Assembly (NCBI GenBank): GCA_016177735.1
Contig: JACOUS010000014.1
Span: forward strand, 186,001 to 250,000
Direction: 5' to 3'
Source of the DNA: Ignavibacteriales bacterium
Lineage (GTDB): Bacteria; Bacteroidota; Ignavibacteria; Ignavibacteriales; Melioribacteraceae
DNA length: 64,000 bases
Of this stretch, positions 36,538 to 47,752 are shown one piece after another (position 1 is the first letter of the stretch; each line of letters opens with the position of its first letter). The notes beneath the pieces were generated by a model. That model was not told the origin of the DNA. It did not search any database and saw only the letters and a program-made list of their open reading frames with translations. A program made the position numbers and the translations under genes.

Positions 36538-37344
36538 ATGAACACACGCGGTTTTATTTTCGATATAAAAAAATATTCAATCAACGACGGACCCGGAATC
36601 CGCACTACAATTTTTTTTAAAGGATGCCCTCTCAAATGCTGGTGGTGTCACAATCCCGAAAGCCAAAATAAATTACCCGAAGAATTCGAAGGATGCACTT
36701 TCCGGTGGAATCTTTCTTACGATCCCGGGCAAAAAAATACCATCGGCACTGAAGTTTTCAGCCATGACGTGATGAAAGAAATCGAAAAGGATATTCCGTT
36801 TTACGAAGAATCAAAAGGCGGCGTAACTTTTTCAGGGGGCGAGCCGATGATGCAAATGGATTTTCTTTTCGAACTTCTTACAAAATCAAAAAAGAAAGAT
36901 ATTCGCACAGCAGTTGATACAACCGGTTTTACGGATTACCAAAACTTTGAACGCATTTACGAATTGACAGATCTTTTTCTTTACGATTTGAAATTGATGA
37001 ACAACGAAGAGCATCTTCTTTACACGGGAGTTCCAAACAAAATTATTCATGAAAATTTGATACTGCTCTCGGAAAAAGGAAATAAAATTATTCTCCGAAT
37101 TCCGGTTATCCCGAAAATCACAGATACAAATGAGAATCTTGATTTGATGATCAATTTTATTTCTGAATTAAAAAACGTCCGCGAAATTGATCTGCTTCCC
37201 TTTCACAAAACAGCCGAATCCAAATACGAAAAAATGGGAAAGGAAAACAAAGTAGTACAACTCGAACCGCCGACAAACGAACAGATGAACAATATTAAAT
37301 ATAGATTATCTTCACTCGGTCACACGGTGAAAATAGGAGGATGA
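36538..37344 (+). CDS. Glycyl-radical enzyme activase (for the HypD-like enzyme)
   Basis: 268 residues. Radical SAM motif GCPLKCWWCHNPE (CxxxCxxC) after the family start YSINDGPGIRTTIFFKG; SAM-binding GGEP in TFSGGEPMMQMDF. It should cut SAM and put the glycyl radical on the enzyme encoded 1 base downstream. Oddity: beyond the three cluster cysteines I see only one more Cys (EGCTF), so it lacks the ferredoxin-like insert with two extra clusters common in non-PFL activases, resembling compact PFL activase in this respect. Stop and next ATG sit in GGAGGATGAAATG, so translation is coupled. Confidence 0.9.
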   Translation: MNTRGFIFDIKKYSINDGPGIRTTIFFKGCPLKCWWCHNPESQNKLPEEFEGCTFRWNLSYDPGQKNTIGTEVFSHDVMKEIEKDIPFYEESKGGVTFSGGEPMMQMDFLFELLTKSKKKDIRTAVDTTGFTDYQNFERIYELTDLFLYDLKLMNNEEHLLYTGVPNKIIHENLILLSEKGNKIILRIPVIPKITDTNENLDLMINFISELKNVREIDLLPFHKTAESKYEKMGKENKVVQLEPPTNEQMNNIKYRLSSLGHTVKIGG

Positions 37345-37345
37345 A

Positions 37346-39709
37346 ATGAACGAACGAATTAAAAAGCTTCGCGAACAAACATTGACAGCGGTTCCTAGAT
37401 TGTCGTACGAGCGTGCGCTTCTGCTGACTGAATTTTATAAAAGCGGCAAAGCGGAAAAAGTTTCTTTACCGGTTGCCCGTGCGCTTTCATTTAAATACAT
37501 TCTTGAAAATAAAGAGTTGTGTGTTAATGACGGCGAGTTGATTGTCGGCGAACGCGGACACGAACCGAAAGAAACTCCGACATATCCCGAACTTTGTGTT
37601 CACAGCTTGCACGACCTTGAAATTCTCGATACACGTCCGAAAGTTTGGTTCAAAGTTAACGACGAAACAAAATCGATCTACGAAAAAGAAATTATTCCTT
37701 TCTGGCAAGGAAGATCGATCCGCGATAAAATTTTTGAGGAAGTCGATCAAGAATGGAAAGACGGTTACGAAGCCGGAATCTTCACAGAATTTATGGAACA
37801 GCGCGCACCGGGGCATACGGTTCTCGATGACAAAATTTACAAAAAGGGAATGCTCGATTTTAAAAATGATATTCAGCTTGCACTTACAAATTTAGATTTC
37901 TACAATGATAAAGAAGCATTTGAAAAACGTGAAGAACTTCACGCGATGGAAATTTGCTGCGATGCGTTAATTTCATTTGCGAACCGCTACACTAAAAAAT
38001 TATACGAACTCGCTTCCAAAGAAAAAGACAAACAACGAAAGAACGAACTCGAAACGATGGCTGGAATCTGCGCACGAATTCCGGCAAATGCACCGCGGAC
38101 TTTTTGGGAAGCACTGCAATATTATTGGTTTGTTCATATTGGAGTAATTACCGAACTCAACACGTGGGATTCTTTTAACCCGGGCAGACTCGATCAACAT
38201 TTATATCCTTTCTACAAACGTGATGTCGAAAGCGGATTGTTAACGGAAGAGAGTGCTAAAGAATTACTGCAATCATTTTGGGTGAAGTTTAATAATCAAC
38301 CGGCGCCGCCGAAGATTGGAGTTACTGCCGCAGAGAGCGGAACTTACACTGATTTCTGTTTAATAAATGTCGGCGGTGTTACTCCCGAAGGCGAAGATGC
38401 GGCAAACGATTTGACTTATGTTATTCTCGATGTGATCGAAGAGATGAGACTTCTTCAGCCAAGTTCGATGGTGCAAGTGAGCAAAAAAAATCCGGACCGT
38501 CTGCTCAAACGCACGATGAAAATTATTAAAACCGGATTCGGTCAGCCGAGCATTTTTAATACGGACGCAATAATTCAGGAAATGCTTCGCCACGGGAAAT
38601 CAATTGTTGATGCGCGGTGCGGCGGTGCAAGCGGTTGTGTTGAAACCGGTTCGTTCGGAAAAGAAGCGTACATACTCACCGGCTATTTCAATCTCGTAAA
38701 AGTTTTGGAAATTACTTTGCATAACAGCTTCGATCCGCGAACACAAAAACAGATTGGCATCGAAACCGGCGATGCTGCCACGTTCAAAACTTTTGACGAA
38801 TTGATGCAAGCATACGAAAAACAACTGAATCATTTCGTCAACATCAAAATAAAAGGAAACATCATCATCGAACGAATTTATGCCGATTACATGCCGGCAC
38901 CGTTCATGTCGATTTTAATTGACGACTGCATTGCAAACGGAAAAGATTACAATGCCGGCGGTGCGCGTTATAATACTTCGTACGTTCAAGGCGTTGGGCT
39001 CGGAACAATTACCGATTCGCTTTCTTCGATCAAGTATAACGTGTTCGATAAGAAAAAAATCTCAATGAAAGAATTGTTCGATACTTTGAGAAATAATTTT
39101 GCAGAGAAAAAAGAATTGCATGACTCGCTTTTGTTCAATACACCAAAGTACGGTAACGATGATGATTACGCCGATGAAATCACAAAACAAATTTTTGAAA
39201 TCTATTACAAAGCTGTTGACGGAAGACCCAACGCCAAAGGCGGATATTTCAGAATAAATTTACTGCCGACAACTTCACATGTTTATTTCGGAAGTGTTAC
39301 CGGCGCTACTCCCGACGGACGTTTTGCATACGAACCGTTGAGCGAAGGAATTTCGCCGGTACAAGGTGCTGATGTTCACGGTCCCACTTCAGTGATTAAA
39401 TCCGCATCGAAGATTGATCACTTGCGAACCGGCGGTACTTTGCTGAATCAAAAATTTACTCCGCAGCTTTTGGAAACAGAAGACGGGATCGAGAGAGCCG
39501 TTCAATTAATCAGGACATATTTTAGATTGGACGGGCATCATATTCAATTCAATGTTGTTAATGCAGGCATTCTGCGCGAAGCACAAAAACATCCCGAAAA
39601 ATTCCGCGACCTTATTGTTCGAGTTGCGGGTTACAGCGATTACTTTGTAGATTTGAGCGAGTCTCTGCAGAACGAAATTATTCGCAGAACAGAACACGCT
39701 GGTTTTTAA
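37346..39709 (+). CDS. hypD: Glycyl-radical trans-4-hydroxy-L-proline dehydratase (HypD)
   Basis: 787 residues. Oxygen-sensitive radical enzyme removing water from trans-4-hydroxy-L-proline to give 1-pyrroline-5-carboxylate (P5C). Active-site motif GGASGCVETGSFGKEAYI (Cys431, Glu433), radical Gly762 in VRVAGYSDYF, and Asp275 in TELNTWDSFNPGRLDQH. Long stretches match my memory of Clostridioides HypD, e.g. FTEFMEQRAPGHTV, KFNNQPAPPK, DYNAGGARYNT, KYGNDDDYADEI and GGTLLNQ. Choline lyase, glycerol dehydratase and PFL lack this combination. It heads a set of imino-acid genes. The remaining doubt is substrate identity, not the class. Confidence 0.9.
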   Translation: MNERIKKLREQTLTAVPRLSYERALLLTEFYKSGKAEKVSLPVARALSFKYILENKELCVNDGELIVGERGHEPKETPTYPELCVHSLHDLEILDTRPKVWFKVNDETKSIYEKEIIPFWQGRSIRDKIFEEVDQEWKDGYEAGIFTEFMEQRAPGHTVLDDKIYKKGMLDFKNDIQLALTNLDFYNDKEAFEKREELHAMEICCDALISFANRYTKKLYELASKEKDKQRKNELETMAGICARIPANAPRTFWEALQYYWFVHIGVITELNTWDSFNPGRLDQHLYPFYKRDVESGLLTEESAKELLQSFWVKFNNQPAPPKIGVTAAESGTYTDFCLINVGGVTPEGEDAANDLTYVILDVIEEMRLLQPSSMVQVSKKNPDRLLKRTMKIIKTGFGQPSIFNTDAIIQEMLRHGKSIVDARCGGASGCVETGSFGKEAYILTGYFNLVKVLEITLHNSFDPRTQKQIGIETGDAATFKTFDELMQAYEKQLNHFVNIKIKGNIIIERIYADYMPAPFMSILIDDCIANGKDYNAGGARYNTSYVQGVGLGTITDSLSSIKYNVFDKKKISMKELFDTLRNNFAEKKELHDSLLFNTPKYGNDDDYADEITKQIFEIYYKAVDGRPNAKGGYFRINLLPTTSHVYFGSVTGATPDGRFAYEPLSEGISPVQGADVHGPTSVIKSASKIDHLRTGGTLLNQKFTPQLLETEDGIERAVQLIRTYFRLDGHHIQFNVVNAGILREAQKHPEKFRDLIVRVAGYSDYFVDLSESLQNEIIRRTEHAGF

Positions 39710-39926: not shown

Positions 39927-41321
39927 ATGTTCAGCACAAAAACTTACACCACACGAAGAGCACAACTAAAAAAGAAAATTGATAACGGAGTAATTCTTCT
40001 GCTCGGCAATAACGATGCGCCGATGAATTACACCGACAACACTTATCACTACAGGCAAGACAGCACTTTCCTCTACTACTTCGGTTTGGAACAACCAGAA
40101 CTTGCCGCAGTGATTGACATTGACGAGAACAAAGAAATTATTTTCGGGAATGATTTTACTCTCGATGAAATTGTTTGGATGGGACCGCAGCAAACAATGA
40201 AACAGAAAGCGGAAAAAGTCGGTGTAAAAGTTACAAAGCCGGCAGACGAGCTTGAAACATTTTTGAAAGATGCCATCGGCAAAAAAAGAAAAATTCATTT
40301 CATTCCGCAGTACCGTCACGATAACATGCTGAAGTTTCAAAAACTACTCGGCATCGATGCAAATAAAATTAATGATTATTCATCTATCTCTTTGATAAAA
40401 GCAATTACGGAACAGCGTTCGGTGAAATCAAAAGAAGAAATTGCGGAGATCGAAAATGCAATTTCAATTTCTTATGAAATGCAGACCGGTGCGATGAGTT
40501 ATGCAAAACCGGGAATGATGGAACGCGAAATTGCCGGATTCATTGCGGGACTCGCTTCTTCGATGGGAAACGGAATTGCATTCCCCATAATTTTTTCGCG
40601 CAACGGACAAACTTTGCACAATCACTTTCACGGAAATATTTTGAAAGAGGGCGACATTGTTGTTAACGACAGCGGTGCCGAATCCGATGAACATTACGCA
40701 AGCGATATCACGCGAACATTTCCGGTGAGCGGAAAATTTACAGCACAGCAAAGGGAAATTTATCAGATTGTCCTAGATGCAAATCTTGCCGGAATAAAAG
40801 GAGTGAAACCCGGCATCAGTTTCCGCGAAGTACATTTTAAATCCGCTCTCGTAATCGCAGAAGGATTGAAAGCGCTTGGCTTCATGAAAGGCAGCATGAA
40901 AGAAGCTGTTAAAGCCGGTGCACATGCACTCTTCTTCCCTCACGGCTTGGGACATCTGCTCGGATTGGATGTTCACGATCTCGAAAACTTCGGCGAAAAT
41001 AATTTCGGCTACGATGAAAATGTAAAGCGCAGCACACAATTCGGATCGAAGTCGCTCCGCTTTGCAAGAATTTTAAAACCGGGAATTGTATTAACAATCG
41101 AGCCGGGCATCTATTTCATTCCCGAATTAATTGATAAATGGAAAGCAGAGAAAAAATTCACCGAGTACATTAATTACCCGAAAGTTGAATCGTACAAAAA
41201 GTTCGGCGGAATCAGAATTGAAGACGATGTAGTAGTTACAAACACCGGCAGCCGCGTACTCGGCATTCCGATTCCCAAAACAATTGATGAAGTAGAAGCG
41301 GCAGCCTCGGAAAAGATATAG
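39927..41321 (+). CDS. pepP: Xaa-Pro aminopeptidase / dipeptidase (M24B)
   Basis: Releases N-terminal residues before proline (or hydroxyproline). 464 residues: N-terminal creatinase-like domain (YRQDSTFLYYFGLEQPELAA) and C-terminal pita-bread domain with the five metal ligands: Asp in NDSGAESDEHY, Asp in SDITRTFPV, His in FPHGLGHLLGLDVHD, Glu in TIEPGIYF, and Glu in GGIRIEDDVV. No signal peptide, so cytoplasmic. Its place between hypD and prolinedehydrogenase fits a supply of free imino acids from peptides. Confidence 0.9.
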   Translation: MFSTKTYTTRRAQLKKKIDNGVILLLGNNDAPMNYTDNTYHYRQDSTFLYYFGLEQPELAAVIDIDENKEIIFGNDFTLDEIVWMGPQQTMKQKAEKVGVKVTKPADELETFLKDAIGKKRKIHFIPQYRHDNMLKFQKLLGIDANKINDYSSISLIKAITEQRSVKSKEEIAEIENAISISYEMQTGAMSYAKPGMMEREIAGFIAGLASSMGNGIAFPIIFSRNGQTLHNHFHGNILKEGDIVVNDSGAESDEHYASDITRTFPVSGKFTAQQREIYQIVLDANLAGIKGVKPGISFREVHFKSALVIAEGLKALGFMKGSMKEAVKAGAHALFFPHGLGHLLGLDVHDLENFGENNFGYDENVKRSTQFGSKSLRFARILKPGIVLTIEPGIYFIPELIDKWKAEKKFTEYINYPKVESYKKFGGIRIEDDVVVTNTGSRVLGIPIPKTIDEVEAAASEKI

Positions 41322-41610: not shown

Positions 41611-42537
41611 ATGAGTCTCTCCCGTAGTGTACTTTTATGGATGTCTGAAAATAAATGGATGCAAAACAATGTACCGCGGTGGTGGTTTGTCCGCAAAGCG
41701 GTAAAAAAATTTATGCCGGGCGAAAGTGTTGAAGATGCGCTCAACGCCGCGCAAAATTTTTCGGCATACAACATTCCTACCGTTTTCACAAAACTTGGCG
41801 AGAACATCACACAAATTTCTGAAGCCGCCGTTGTACGCGATCACTATCTTCGTCTAATCAATAAAATTTCCGAACGAAAACTCGATGTTGAAATTTCTTT
41901 GAAGCTCACACAGCTCGGTTTTGATTTATCCGAAGAAGAGGCTTTCAAAAATTTTTCGGTAATCGCAAAACATGCAAAGGAGAAACTTGGCAATACTGTT
42001 TTCATCGATATGGAAGGAAGTGCTTACACGCAAAGAACAATTGATTTTTACAAGCGCATCAAACTTGAACACAGCAACGCGGGTTTATGTTTGCAAGCAT
42101 ATCTCAGGAGAACCGATAATGATTTAAATGAATTGTTCGGAATTTCTTTGTCTCTTCGATTGGTAAAAGGCGCGTACAAAGAACCGCGAGAGATTGCACT
42201 TCCCGAAAAATGGGAAGTTGACCGTAATTATTTTGACCTCTCTTCAAAAATGATGAACGAAATTAAAAAGAACGGCGAAAGAATAATTTATGCTACACAC
42301 GATCAGAAATTAATTGCAAAAATTATTGAGGAATCGAAAAAGATCGGTCTGCCCAAAGAGAAGCTTGAGTTTCAAATGTTATACGGAATAAAAACTCCCT
42401 TGCAAAAACAGCTTGCAAAGGAGGGATACAAAATCCGCGTGCTGATATCCTACGGAGAATCGTGGTATCCGTGGTACGTACGGAGGCTTGCGGAACGACC
42501 GGCAAATATTTGGTTCGTACTGAAGAATCTTTTTTAA
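41611..42537 (+). CDS. Proline dehydrogenase-family enzyme, possibly hydroxyproline-active
   Basis: 308 residues, a monofunctional FAD-dependent PRODH: oxidises L-proline to P5C at the membrane. Motifs: IDMEGSAYTQRT, LCLQAYLRRTDND, LRLVKGAYKEP, YATHDQKL, FQMLYGIK and the substrate-binding Arg pair in WYVRRLAERPAN (Arg291, Arg292). Oddity: 13 residues before Arg291, where Thermus PRODH has Tyr275 and E. coli PutA Tyr540, this protein has Leu278 (RVLISYGESWYP). That Tyr is known to enforce proline over hydroxyproline; mammalian PRODH2, which takes hydroxyproline, has Ser there. So hydroxyproline activity is plausible, given the neighbours. Confidence 0.88.
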   Translation: MSLSRSVLLWMSENKWMQNNVPRWWFVRKAVKKFMPGESVEDALNAAQNFSAYNIPTVFTKLGENITQISEAAVVRDHYLRLINKISERKLDVEISLKLTQLGFDLSEEEAFKNFSVIAKHAKEKLGNTVFIDMEGSAYTQRTIDFYKRIKLEHSNAGLCLQAYLRRTDNDLNELFGISLSLRLVKGAYKEPREIALPEKWEVDRNYFDLSSKMMNEIKKNGERIIYATHDQKLIAKIIEESKKIGLPKEKLEFQMLYGIKTPLQKQLAKEGYKIRVLISYGESWYPWYVRRLAERPANIWFVLKNLF

Positions 42538-42646: not shown

Positions 42647-42937
42647 ATGAAAGCGGGCATTTATCTTACGGGCTCAGGTCCAATCGTAATTATTACTTCG
42701 TATGATTCATTTACACATCCAAACCTCGTAAAAAAATTATCGTCGAAAGGAATCAAAAAATTTATCGTGTACGAAATTCCGGTGGATGCGGCGATGGAAA
42801 AATACGGGCATCATTACGAAGCGGTGATGGATGATCTCAAACAAGAAGATGATCTTCGCGTTCTCGATTACGACGGTCACCATATTTTTGCAAAATTCTC
42901 ATTTAAAGAATTCGGCGTACCGATTCTTTATGAATAA
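42647..42937 (+). CDS. Small protein of unknown function in the imino-acid island
   Basis: 96 residues, start MKAGIYLTGSGPIVIITSYD, with an excellent AAAGGAGGTG ribosome-binding site. Predicted alpha/beta, cytoplasmic; two His pairs (GHHYEA and DGHHIF) are notable as possible metal ligands. I do not recognise a family. Lying between the PRODH-like and HOGA1-like genes on the same strand, it could be an accessory factor of this pathway, which is inference from position. Confidence 0.65.
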   Translation: MKAGIYLTGSGPIVIITSYDSFTHPNLVKKLSSKGIKKFIVYEIPVDAAMEKYGHHYEAVMDDLKQEDDLRVLDYDGHHIFAKFSFKEFGVPILYE

Positions 42938-43074: not shown

Positions 43075-43959
43075 ATGAAAAAGTTGTACGGAATTATGCC
43101 GCCGATAGTCACTCCTTTTGTGAACGGCGAGCTTGCAATAGATAAACTTGAATTCAACATTAATAAATGGAACAAGACAGAACTTAGCGGTTACGTTGTA
43201 ATGGGTTCAAACGGCGAGTCGGTTTTTCTTACACGCGAAGAAAAATTAAAACTTGTCGAAGCCGCAAAAAAATTTTCATCGGAAAATAAATTAATTATTG
43301 CCGGTACCGGTTCGGATTCAATCAAAGAAACAATCGCACTCACAAATGATGCGGCGGAACGCGGCGCCGATTTTGCACTTGTGCTCACTCCTTCTTTTTA
43401 CAAATCCGAAATGAAACACGCATCGTATGTAAAATATTTTACAATGGCTGCTGATGCGGTAAAGATTCCCGTGATAATTTACAATGTTCCAAAATTCACC
43501 GGCGTTGATATTGAAGTGGAAACAGTTGCAGAACTTTCCGCACATCCGAATATTGCCGGGATAAAAAACAGTTCGGAAAATTCAAGACAGAATACCGAGT
43601 TCGTTTCAAATACAAAAAAAGATTTTGCTGTAATTGTCGGCACCGCTTCGATGATCTTTCCGGGAATTACATGCGGTGCAGCCGGAGGAATTGTTGCACT
43701 CGCCAACATAGCGCCGAATGAATGTGTGCAAATTCAAAAATTAATCGAGAATGGAAAATTGAACGAAGCACTCGAACTTCAGCAAAAAATGATTCCCGTT
43801 AACAAAGCCGTAACGGCAAAGTACGGTGTTGCCGGATTAAAAGCGGCAATGGATATGCTTGGCTATTTCGGCGGTGAGCCGAGAGCGCCGCTGTCGGGGC
43901 TTGCAGATCCAGATAAGGAGAATATAAAAAAGATTCTTGCTCATGCCGGATTAGTATAA
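43075..43959 (+). CDS. HOGA1-like 4-hydroxy-2-oxoglutarate aldolase (DapA/NAL superfamily)
   Basis: 294 residues, class I lyase of the dihydrodipicolinate-synthase superfamily. Schiff-base Lys164 in IAGIKNSSE and Tyr136 in VIIYNVPKFTG. The substrate-loop reads VMGSNGESVFLT, like human HOGA1 (QGSNGEF) and unlike DapA (GTTGES). The tail NKAVTAKYGVAGLKAAMDM then GYFGGEPRAPL matches HOGA1 closely as I remember it. HOGA1 splits 4-hydroxy-2-oxoglutarate into pyruvate and glyoxylate, the last carbon step of hydroxyproline breakdown. Next gene is AGXT-like, which uses glyoxylate. DapA function is the alternative but less likely. Confidence 0.75.
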   Translation: MKKLYGIMPPIVTPFVNGELAIDKLEFNINKWNKTELSGYVVMGSNGESVFLTREEKLKLVEAAKKFSSENKLIIAGTGSDSIKETIALTNDAAERGADFALVLTPSFYKSEMKHASYVKYFTMAADAVKIPVIIYNVPKFTGVDIEVETVAELSAHPNIAGIKNSSENSRQNTEFVSNTKKDFAVIVGTASMIFPGITCGAAGGIVALANIAPNECVQIQKLIENGKLNEALELQQKMIPVNKAVTAKYGVAGLKAAMDMLGYFGGEPRAPLSGLADPDKENIKKILAHAGLV

Positions 43960-44164: not shown

Positions 44165-45280
44165 ATGAATAAATCTTTTATCCCTTTCAACCGAATTTTG
44201 ATGGGACCCGGTCCATCAAATGTTAATCCGCAAGTATTAAAAGCATTATCAAAACCGGCACTCGGTCATCTCGATCCGCAATTCATCGAACTTATGGATG
44301 AAATAAAATCATTACTCAAGTACACATTCAAAACCGAGAACGAAGCAACGTTTGTTCTTTCCGGTCCGGGCTCGCTTGGAATGGAAGCGTGCCTTGTTAA
44401 TCTTGTTGAACCAGGCGATAAAGTTATTGTTGCAATCGGCGGATATTTTGCAAACAGAATGGCGCAGATTGTCGAGAAGATCGGCGGACACGTAATTGCA
44501 GTAAAAGAAACTTGGGGACGTGCAATCGATCCGCAAAAATTTGAAGATGCATTCAAACAAAATCCCGATGTAAAAGTTGCTGCATTTGTTCACGCGGAAA
44601 CATCGACCGGCGCACTGCAAAATGCCAAAGTACTTTCGGAGGTCGCACACAAATACGGCGCGCTCGTAATTGCCGACACGGTTACATCGCTCGGCGCTGT
44701 TGAAGTCCGCGTTGATGAATGGAATCTCGATGCATCGTATTCATGTTCACAGAAAGGATTATCATGCGTAGCCGGAATGTCGCCGATAACATTCAGTGCT
44801 CGTGCAGTCGAGCATATCAAAAAAAGAAAAACTCCGGTTCAAAGCTGGTTTAATGATTTGAATCTTCTTTTGAGTTATTGGAACGGACCGGGCAAAAGAG
44901 CTTATCATCACACTGCACCGAGTAATCAATTTTATGGATTGCATGAAGCGCTTCTTCTTTTAAAAGAAGAAGGGATTGAAAATTCTTGGCGAAGACACAA
45001 AGAAAACAGCAATAAATTAGTCGCTAGATTGAAAGAAATTGGTTTGGAGCCGCTCGTTCCCGAAAACGAACGGATACCGAATTTGCTTACAATAAAAATT
45101 CCCGAAGGAATTGACGAAGCAAAAGTTAGAACAGATTTGTTGAACAAACACAATCTGGAAATTGGCGCCGGACTCGGGGAACTTGCCGGAAAAGTTTGGC
45201 GAATCGGGTTGATGGGTTACAATTCCAGTGAGAAGATGATTCTGTTTTGCATCAATGCGTTGAAGGATGTGATGAGGTAA
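44165..45280 (+). CDS. Class V aminotransferase, alanine-glyoxylate (AGXT-like)
   Basis: 371 residues, PLP enzyme. Start LMGPGPSNVNPQVLKAL, PLP-Lys197 in SCSQKGLSCVAGMSP, Asp in VIADTVTSLGA, then YHHTAPSNQFYGLHEALLLL and IGLMGYNSSEKM. These match the alanine-glyoxylate/serine-pyruvate aminotransferase group, which turns glyoxylate into glycine with alanine as donor. Following the HOGA1-like aldolase, this would clear the glyoxylate it makes. A gap of 205 bases separates the two and shows no promoter I can name. Other class V substrates (serine, phosphoserine) cannot be fully excluded. Confidence 0.82.
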   Translation: MNKSFIPFNRILMGPGPSNVNPQVLKALSKPALGHLDPQFIELMDEIKSLLKYTFKTENEATFVLSGPGSLGMEACLVNLVEPGDKVIVAIGGYFANRMAQIVEKIGGHVIAVKETWGRAIDPQKFEDAFKQNPDVKVAAFVHAETSTGALQNAKVLSEVAHKYGALVIADTVTSLGAVEVRVDEWNLDASYSCSQKGLSCVAGMSPITFSARAVEHIKKRKTPVQSWFNDLNLLLSYWNGPGKRAYHHTAPSNQFYGLHEALLLLKEEGIENSWRRHKENSNKLVARLKEIGLEPLVPENERIPNLLTIKIPEGIDEAKVRTDLLNKHNLEIGAGLGELAGKVWRIGLMGYNSSEKMILFCINALKDVMR

Positions 45281-45350: not shown

Positions 45351-45725
45351 TTAAATTTTATGAAGTCTTAAACCGGGAATAAATTTAAAATCCTTCAAGT
45401 TGTAGGTTAACAATTCATAATGGAATTCTAATGCTGTCGCTGCTATAAAAGCATCGGGGATAGAGAGTTTGTGACTCTTGCTAAATTGCTCAATCAAATT
45501 AACGCTCCGCATCGAAATTTCTTTTGTTACGTGAATTATAGGAAGAGAAGATAAATGTTTTTTAATGAATTGTATTTCGCGTTTGTTAAAAGCGCCGTAG
45601 TAAAGTTCCATTTCGGTAATCGAGCTAACCGTTAATTCTTCAATCCCAATCTTATTAACAATTCCAATTGTCTTTTCACTGCCCTTTAATAGTTCAATTA
45701 TAATGTTGGTATCACACAGAATCAT
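45351..45725 (-). CDS. PIN-domain ribonuclease toxin (VapC-like)
   Basis: 124 residues from ATG 45725. PIN fold acidic residues: Asp in ILCDTNIIIELL, Glu in SSITEMELYYGAF, Asp in LSIPDAFIAATAL and Asp/Asn in TYNLKDFKFIPGL. VapC toxins cut tRNA or other RNA and are held by an antitoxin. The ATG lies 1 base after the stop of the upstream small gene. The frame opens further back over that gene and is not used. It sits on the opposite strand between two imino-acid genes. Confidence 0.85.
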   Translation of the reverse strand: MILCDTNIIIELLKGSEKTIGIVNKIGIEELTVSSITEMELYYGAFNKREIQFIKKHLSSLPIIHVTKEISMRSVNLIEQFSKSHKLSIPDAFIAATALEFHYELLTYNLKDFKFIPGLRLHKI

Positions 45726-45726
45726 T

Positions 45727-45939
45727 TTATCTACGTCCCCACGCTTTTTTACGTAAGGCGACAAGTTCAATATTCCTATTTTTCCAAATGCCAAAAAGAT
45801 TTCTGAAATCACCTTCTTGGGTTCTTGGTCTTAAATCAGGTTTATGTTCTTCTATCCGAACAAATTTCAACTCTTTTAATAACCGAAGAATCAGATTTTT
45901 TTTAGAAACATCTTTTATAGTAAGTGTTATTCTTTCCAT
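45727..45939 (-). CDS. Putative antitoxin partner of the PIN-domain toxin
   Basis: 70 residues, charged, start MERITLTIKDVSKKNLILRL with AGGAGG upstream. It has the size and operon position of a VapB-type antitoxin, immediately before the toxin, but no classic AbrB or MetJ-like motif that I can name. Only context supports the function. Such genes often act as repressor of their own operon. Confidence 0.65.
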   Translation of the reverse strand: MERITLTIKDVSKKNLILRLLKELKFVRIEEHKPDLRPRTQEGDFRNLFGIWKNRNIELVALRKKAWGRR

Positions 45940-46114: not shown

Positions 46115-47752
46115 ATGTCGAACGCAATATTTAAAGTACCGCTCCCCCCGAACGATCAAAACAAAACTTATGCGCCGGGAACACCGGAACGTTCAGCGCT
46201 CAAAGCAAAACTTGATGAACTTGCAAACCAGCAGATTGATATCCCGATAATCATCGGCGGAAAAGAAATTAGAACCGGCGACACAGATAATTGTATAATG
46301 CCGCACGACCACAAACATGTACTCGCGAAATACCACAAAGTGAGCGAGAAAGAAGTTAAGATGGCTATTGATTCCGCAATGGAAGCTCACAAAATTTGGT
46401 CGCGTACGAATTGGTACGACCGTGCCGCAATTTTTATGAAAGCCGCCGACTTGCTTGCTTTAACCGAATGGCGTTATACTTTAAATGCCGCAACAATGCT
46501 CGGTCAAAGTAAAAATGCTTTTCAGGCAGAGATCGATTCCGCAAGCGAGATAATCGATTTCTTCCGTTTCAACGCTTACTACGCTATGAAAATTTATGAA
46601 GAACAGCCGATTCACTCGCCGTTCGGAATGTGGAATAGATTGGAATACCGTCCACTTGAAGGATTTATTTTTGCAGTTGCACCATTTAACTTTACATCCA
46701 TCTGCGCAAATTTACCAACCGCGCCGGCATTGATGGGAAATGTTGCTTTGTTAAAACCGGCATCGAGCGCAGTTTATTCTGCATACTGGATTATGAAATT
46801 ATTGGAAGCTGCCGGCTTGCCCGAAGGCGTTATTAATTTTGTTCCGGGTTCCGGTTCAAAAGTTGGAAACCCCGTAATGGATTCAGAATACTTTGGCGGC
46901 ATACACTTTACCGGTTCAACACCAACATTTCAATCAATGTGGAGAACTGCTGCAAACAATTTGCCAAAGTACAAATCATACCCGCGCATAGTTGGTGAAA
47001 CCGGTGGAAAAGATTTTATCTTCGCACACCCAAGTGCAGATTTGAAAGCAATCGGCACTGCAATGATACGCGGCGCGTTTGAATATCAAGGACAAAAATG
47101 TTCGGCCGCATCGCGCGCTTACATTCCTAAATCAATCTGGAAGGAATTGAAAGATTATATCGTAAGCGAACTCAAAACCGTTAAGATGGGTGATCCGCGC
47201 GACTTCTCAAATTTCATGAATGCCGTTATCGACAAAGGCGCATTCGATACAATTACAAGTTACATCGACTATGCAAAGAAATCGAACGAAGCAGAAATTA
47301 TATCCGGCGGAAATTACGACAGCTCGAAAGGATATTTCATCGAGCCAACTATAATTCAAACAACCAATCCGAAATTCAAATCGATAGAAGAAGAAATCTT
47401 CGGACCGGTACTCACTCTTTATGTTTATGATGATAACAAGTACGAAGAAACACTACATCTTTGCGATGAAACTTCTCCATACTCGTTGACCGGCGCAATA
47501 TTCGCACAAGATAGATACGCAGTAGAAACAGCAAACAAAATTTTGGTAAACGCATCCGGGAATTTTTACATCAACGATAAGCCGACCGGCGCAGTAGTTG
47601 GTCAACAGCCTTTTGGTGGTGCACGCGCAAGCGGCACAAACGATAAAGCCGGCAGTTATCTTAATTTGATGCGTTGGGTTTCTGCCCGTACAATTAAAGA
47701 AAATTTTATTCCTCCGAAAGATTACCGCTATTCTTTTATGAGTGAGAAATAA
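46115..47752 (+). CDS. pruA: L-glutamate gamma-semialdehyde (P5C) dehydrogenase, ALDH4A1-like
   Basis: 545 residues, NAD-dependent aldehyde dehydrogenase. Catalytic Cys329 in YQGQKCSAASRAY and Glu295 in IVGETGGKDFIF; FTGSTPTFQSMW; EEEIFGPVLTLYVYDD. The N-terminal arm (FKVPLPPNDQNKTYAPGTPE) is like the eukaryotic ALDH4A1/fungal type found in Bacteroidota. It oxidises glutamate semialdehyde, the open form of P5C made by HypD or proline dehydrogenase, to glutamate; ALDH4A1 also takes the 4-hydroxy form. It completes the imino-acid island, though a toxin-antitoxin pair lies between. Confidence 0.93.
   Translation: MSNAIFKVPLPPNDQNKTYAPGTPERSALKAKLDELANQQIDIPIIIGGKEIRTGDTDNCIMPHDHKHVLAKYHKVSEKEVKMAIDSAMEAHKIWSRTNWYDRAAIFMKAADLLALTEWRYTLNAATMLGQSKNAFQAEIDSASEIIDFFRFNAYYAMKIYEEQPIHSPFGMWNRLEYRPLEGFIFAVAPFNFTSICANLPTAPALMGNVALLKPASSAVYSAYWIMKLLEAAGLPEGVINFVPGSGSKVGNPVMDSEYFGGIHFTGSTPTFQSMWRTAANNLPKYKSYPRIVGETGGKDFIFAHPSADLKAIGTAMIRGAFEYQGQKCSAASRAYIPKSIWKELKDYIVSELKTVKMGDPRDFSNFMNAVIDKGAFDTITSYIDYAKKSNEAEIISGGNYDSSKGYFIEPTIIQTTNPKFKSIEEEIFGPVLTLYVYDDNKYEETLHLCDETSPYSLTGAIFAQDRYAVETANKILVNASGNFYINDKPTGAVVGQQPFGGARASGTNDKAGSYLNLMRWVSARTIKENFIPPKDYRYSFMSEK

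Follow-up and report, generated by a model that had tools for sequence, protein, structure and literature searches.

A Leu/Trp-type proline dehydrogenase in a predicted hydroxyproline gene cluster of an ignavibacterial genome

Characterised proline dehydrogenases (PRODHs) have a tyrosine shortly before the substrate-binding arginine pair (Tyr275 in Thermus, Tyr540 in PutA). A sequence-only reading of a 64,000-nucleotide stretch of an Ignavibacteriales genome (the window) found leucine there in a PRODH encoded in the stretch. It took the tyrosine to enforce proline over hydroxyproline, and proposed that the enzyme may oxidise hydroxyproline and so provide the first step of a HOGA1-like branch. 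For PutA Tyr540 this rule has backing: as summarised in a citing paper (PMC3718742), Ostrander et al. 2009 reported that this residue favours proline over hydroxyproline. The locus thus raises the question of whether the substitution identifies the substrate or whether a role in hydroxyproline use has to be argued from elsewhere. Loss of the gatekeeper tyrosine and use of hydroxyproline are easily equated; here we keep them apart.

The PRODH and its substrate pocket

The features considered in this section are the following.

41611..42537, + strand: Leu/Trp-type monofunctional PRODH, proposed trans-4-hydroxy-L-proline dehydrogenase (PF01619; nearest solved structure Thermus PRODH)
42442..42444, + strand: Leu278 codon, CTG, corresponding to Thermus Tyr275 and PutA Tyr540 (HMMER alignment; Leu in 78/78 clade members)
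42472..42474, + strand: Trp288 codon, corresponding to Thermus Tyr285 and co-varying with Leu278 (HMMER alignment; clade alignment)

The 308-residue product matches PF01619 with 102.6 bits (cut-off 27) and possesses the catalytic residues Lys98, Asp133, Arg291, Arg292 and Glu295, which together place it in this family. These pocket residues, along with Tyr189, are invariant over our alignment. The AlphaFold model (pLDDT 89.2) is most similar to the Thermus thermophilus PRODH structure 2g37 (TM 0.88, 35% identity), and the HMMER alignment with another structure of this enzyme, 2ekg (E 6e-57), is gap-free around RVLISYGESWYPWYVRRLAERP. It pairs Leu278 with Tyr275, Trp288 with Tyr285 and Tyr281 with Tyr278. 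By this alignment the leucine does occupy the Tyr275 place, and no alternative tyrosine takes it. According to the codon positions, Leu278 lies 13 residues before Arg291-Arg292, as had been claimed, within the span 42433-42495 that encodes residues 275-295. Thus, the window enzyme has the fold and catalytic residues of Thermus PRODH but lacks the tyrosine of proline-specific PRODHs and has Leu278/Trp288 instead of Tyr275/Tyr285; its score against the ProDh_Thermus equivalog is 251 (cut-off 500). The second change, Tyr285 to Trp288, at a place that we take to be Tyr552 of PutA, was missing from the earlier reading. The bulky Trp288 may fill the space left by the loss of Tyr275.

In PRODH2 the tyrosine is replaced by serine. 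The window PRODH has leucine rather than serine at this place, and its closest solved relative is the bacterial Thermus enzyme. Human PRODH2, as modelled, is described as resembling PutA more closely in fold, and the structure of human HYPDH has not been determined to date (PMC13155685). Small bacterial Leu/Trp enzymes might stand in for it in structural work.

The genome (3.87 Mb, 99.99% complete) encodes one more PRODH, designated C30, in which the corresponding motif, RIYVPFGEHWYKYSIRRL, has tyrosine at both places. We compared the window's own genome with those of 57 relatives. All 58 have a PRODH match, and 15 have the window type (53-68% identity), each time beside a distant PRODH (about 32-42%); the other genomes have distant PRODHs only. 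Leucine is present in all 14 full-length window-type sequences and tyrosine in every distant-type sequence inspected.

The Leu/Trp clade across phyla

How far the leucine extends was addressed by scanning GTDB genomes with the patterns RRLAERPAN and YGxxWYPWY and keeping the best 80 relatives. Leu-type records among these came from Acidobacteria, Gemmatimonadetes, Chloroflexi, Eisenbacteria, Actinobacteria and Ignavibacteria, in a sample biased by patterns that favour Leu-type-like sequences and by the limit of 80. In an alignment of 145 PRODHs, Leu278 and Trp288 are found together in 78/78 clade members, whereas the other 67/67 sequences have tyrosine at both places; mixed cases number 0. Because of this invariance, the alignment indicates that neither residue is due to chance. 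The columns that carry the trait were retained when the PRODH tree was computed. Rooted at the midpoint, this tree requires a single change between the two types and unites the ignavibacterial Leu types, with full SH-aLRT support, inside the Leu group. Fixed together with Trp288 across the clade and traceable to that single change, Leu278 is, on sequence grounds, a clade signature. The Leu278/Trp288 pair would be ancestral to the clade and permissive at most: it may permit activity on hydroxyproline but is no proof of it. We also considered whether Leu278 arose together with the linkage to a gene for a HOGA-like aldolase, and rejected this, as the tree has one change and only the ignavibacterial subgroup shows the linkage.

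Gene content outside Ignavibacteria bears on the same question. No other PRODH was detected in 22 of the 43 sampled non-ignavibacterial Leu-type genomes, and 12 of these 22, Chloroflexota and Eisenbacteria among them, have no HOGA-like gene at ≥34% identity; the 43 genomes are metagenome assemblies of unstated completeness, in which absences cluster by lineage. One of the 12 (G103) has a borderline HOGA-like match at 32%. Most simply, Leu-type enzymes that are the sole PRODH of a genome without a HOGA-like gene oxidise proline. Leu278 alone is therefore no sign of hydroxyproline specificity, and the step from this residue to hydroxyproline use, as originally argued, is weak.

HOGA-like genes of 34-42% identity are present in 27/43 of the non-ignavibacterial Leu-type genomes. 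One could picture the whole Leu/Trp clade as old hydroxyproline or dual-specificity dehydrogenases, with a mammalian-type route widespread in bacteria and its genes mostly unlinked, but we regard this as doubtful. No pocket residue in the alignment separates HOGA-linked from other Leu-type enzymes; column 118 alone differs between them, and it is outside the listed pocket positions. Nor did we see convincing conserved neighbours of Leu-type PRODH genes in other phyla, where high-GC antisense ORFs add noise. The clade provides a direct test bed for the role of the Tyr275 pocket position. Positions 36, 60, 131, 185 and 260 likewise separate Leu/Trp from Tyr/Tyr enzymes in the 145-sequence alignment. 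At two of them, Asp60 and Arg131 of the Tyr type are jointly replaced in the Leu group, by Thr60 and mostly Trp131, perhaps with the loss of a salt bridge.

The gene cluster and its predicted route

Around the PRODH gene, the window encodes the following.

36538..37344, + strand: radical-SAM HypD activase (best match NF043069 at 310 bits, short of the required 425; TIGR02494 threshold exceeded)
37346..39709, + strand: HypD, trans-4-hydroxy-L-proline dehydratase, a glycyl radical enzyme of the anaerobic branch (NF043068, 1332 bits, cut-off 1100)
39927..41321, + strand: Xaa-Pro aminopeptidase-like M24 peptidase (PF00557 and PF05195)
43075..43959, + strand: predicted HOGA1-like 4-hydroxy-2-oxoglutarate aldolase of the DHDPS family (PDB matches; GSNGE motif)
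44165..45280, + strand: alanine-glyoxylate-aminotransferase-like (AGT-like) class V aminotransferase (1vjo AGT, 6e-115; human AGT, about 2e-72)
45351-45812, - strand: VapC-like PIN-domain toxin gene, between the AGT-like and P5CDH genes
46115..47752, + strand: ALDH4A1-type P5C dehydrogenase (TIGR01236, 783 bits; mitochondrial P5CDH structures)

HypD is identified by its NF043068 score together with the glycyl radical domain PF01228. The closest characterised relatives of the aminotransferase are AGTs, which suggests an AGT-like function, although no NCBIfam equivalog cut-off is reached. The ALDH4A1-type enzyme exceeds the TIGR01236 cut-off of 613.6 and is the only protein in the genome to do so; both PRODHs and HypD therefore probably share this one P5C dehydrogenase. 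The M24 peptidase likely releases proline or hydroxyproline from peptides. The best PDB match of the aldolase is human mitochondrial HOGA1 (3s5n, 1.4e-65), ahead of the best DapA (1.6e-42). The GSNGE motif is the same as in human HOGA1, the Schiff-base lysine is present, and phenylalanine replaces the DapA arginine Arg138, all of which points to a HOGA1-like enzyme. Spacing between genes of the cluster is up to 537 bp, so they may not share a single transcript, and a scan for promoters and terminators returned about as many matches as chance predicts.

The sequences themselves show which genes are present, in what order and with which residues, how they co-occur and how they group on the tree; the substrates and fluxes that follow are inferred. 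Hydroxyproline would be released from collagen-like peptides. The Leu-type PRODH would convert trans-4-hydroxyproline to 3-hydroxy-pyrroline-5-carboxylate, from which the ALDH4A1-type dehydrogenase would form 4-hydroxyglutamate. Transamination would then yield 4-hydroxy-2-oxoglutarate; for this step our analysis turned up no dedicated 4-hydroxyglutamate aminotransferase. Cleavage of 4-hydroxy-2-oxoglutarate by the HOGA1-like aldolase would release pyruvate and glyoxylate, the latter being converted to glycine by the AGT-like enzyme. HypD would offer a parallel route without oxygen, from hydroxyproline to P5C, joining at the same P5C dehydrogenase.

The cluster is best read as a bacterial counterpart of the mammalian route from hydroxyproline through glyoxylate to glycine, beside an anaerobic HypD branch. 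Homologous counterparts of the four mammalian enzymes (PRODH2/HYPDH, ALDH4A1, HOGA1 and AGXT) are clustered in the window, and human HOGA1 and mitochondrial P5CDHs are among the best solved relatives of its aldolase and P5C dehydrogenase. Unlike in mammals, the dehydrogenase is a small bacterial monofunctional PRODH with Leu/Trp, and all the genes are gathered in a single bacterial cluster that also includes HypD. HypD and its glycyl-radical activase are shared with the gut Clostridiales pathway, in which the described partner of HypD is P5C reductase (PMC7077986); in the window the partners are a P5C dehydrogenase and the oxidative HOGA branch. Mammals are described as converting hydroxyproline to glyoxylate and pyruvate, and bacteria as converting it to alpha-ketoglutarate (PMC5144071). 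The Pseudomonas Lhp pathway described there has the same substrate, but the predicted products here are pyruvate and glyoxylate rather than alpha-ketoglutarate. The own genome has no match to hydroxyproline 2-epimerase (PF05544) at E 0.001, and on this ground the classical Lhp epimerase pathway was rejected.

If the reading is right, a mammalian-type route, the human enzymes of which play a part in primary hyperoxaluria, is available as an easily expressed bacterial gene cluster that also encodes a second, glycyl-radical way of handling hydroxyproline. Our literature search found no description of a bacterial cluster for the mammalian-type hydroxyproline route, which is not proof of absence.

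Co-occurrence in relatives and alternative readings

In 13/13 complete loci of the relatives, and in the window, the next gene after the Leu-type PRODH is the HOGA-like one, setting aside the small ORF described below. A HOGA-like gene at ≥53% identity is present in 15/15 genomes with the Leu type and in 2/43 without it (Fisher p 4.6e-12, ignoring relatedness). The association with HypD is loose: 9 genomes have both HypD and the Leu type, 6 the Leu type only and 9 HypD only (p 0.009). Since HypD is only loosely associated and at least five relatives have the Leu-type PRODH and HOGA-like genes without it, PRODH and HOGA form a unit of their own, and the oxidative branch stands alone.

Could the aldolase be something else? 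If it were DapA, serving lysine and DAP synthesis, its place beside the PRODH gene would be incidental. In favour of DapA, the genome has no second PF00701 gene and does encode DapB, and with a score of 202.6 the protein narrowly misses the TIGR00674 cut-off of 206.15. The meaning of Arg138 in DapA is well established, however, and the window protein has neither this arginine nor the GTTGE motif. Its closer homologues carry motifs of the GS(N/T)GE type and have another residue than arginine at the exact Arg138 place, whereas a majority of the distant, DapA-like homologues in the relatives keep GTTGE, together with SRT or GRT. The window protein is also nearest to HOGA1, and its gene tracks the Leu-type PRODH, with no detectable homologue in 27/58 genomes. 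On motif, Arg138, closeness to HOGA1 and distribution we rejected DapA, an identity we consider very improbable. We give just as little credence to the protein being the deaminase of a hydroxyproline pathway. That deaminase is reported to be of the DHDPS family as well (Watanabe 2012, as cited in PMC5144071), and a PF05544 protein does occur in the clusters of some relatives. But the own genome lacks a PF05544 gene, the relatives' PF05544 proteins that were read have threonine at the second catalytic position, a dehydratase pattern, and the window aldehyde dehydrogenase is a P5CDH that, with 215 bits, falls well short of the 770-bit cut-off for alpha-KGSA dehydrogenases.

A more serious rival concerns the PRODH itself, which might be a second proline dehydrogenase for the proline of the same peptides, with HypD handling hydroxyproline and Leu/Trp a neutral alternative to Tyr/Tyr. 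Such neutrality would fit the fixation of Leu/Trp across phyla and the possibility that the tryptophan occupies the space of the tyrosine. It would also fit the roughly one half of the 43 sampled non-ignavibacterial genomes in which no PRODH other than the Leu type was seen, 12 of these lacking a HOGA-like gene as well. Yet the genome already has a Tyr-type PRODH, and the conserved adjacency and co-occurrence with the HOGA-like gene, even where HypD is missing, would be left unexplained; we consider this alternative rather unlikely. We favour, with a probability of roughly 0.7, a specialised second PRODH that oxidises hydroxyproline, and may retain some activity on proline, within a hydroxyproline cluster. 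Counting against this reading are the Leu/Trp enzymes that are probably the sole PRODH of their genome, the absence of a pocket residue that marks HOGA-linked enzymes, the two genomes with a HOGA-like gene but no Leu-type PRODH, and the gaps in the route and in gene spacing noted above. This PRODH2-like role is predicted from gene context: hydroxyproline use is likely right because of the HOGA1-like, AGT-like, P5CDH and HypD genes and the second PRODH of the Tyr type. Of the original proposal, the suggestion that this enzyme may feed a HOGA1-like branch finds good support in gene context, in co-occurrence and in the Tyr-type PRODH elsewhere in the genome.

Several loci depart from the common arrangement. 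The sole interruption between PRODH and HOGA-like genes is a 96-aa ORF in the window (42647-42937, + strand, MKAGIYLTGSGPIVIITSYDSF..., with no Pfam match) and in its congener G001, where it is 91% identical (locus L033); it is absent from the other loci examined. With respect to DAP and lysine synthesis, the own genome combines a DapB gene with a sole PF00701 gene without the DapA arginine, and 27/58 genomes have no match to the protein encoded by the latter. In G002 (L035, G002:C169:3342-3470) a short HypD remnant, covering profile positions 738-783, lies beside a PepP gene, and since only this remnant is left, it suggests that the anaerobic branch was lost there. Two HOGA-like loci, L233 and L234, belong to hydroxyproline-type clusters without a Leu-type PRODH, in G021 and G032. 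In G032, consecutive genes encode HypD, a POT-type transporter, a HOGA-like and an AGT-like protein, and in G021 the HOGA-like gene is near a PF05544-type gene; in both genomes another enzyme may feed the aldolase. The clusters of several relatives include a PF05544 protein that is nearest to trans-3-hydroxyproline dehydratase, though below the equivalog cut-off, and in the two sequences read its catalytic places hold Cys and Thr (DRSPTGTG). Clusters of several relatives also encode a proton-dependent POT peptide transporter, and both proteins would suit growth on collagen-type peptides.
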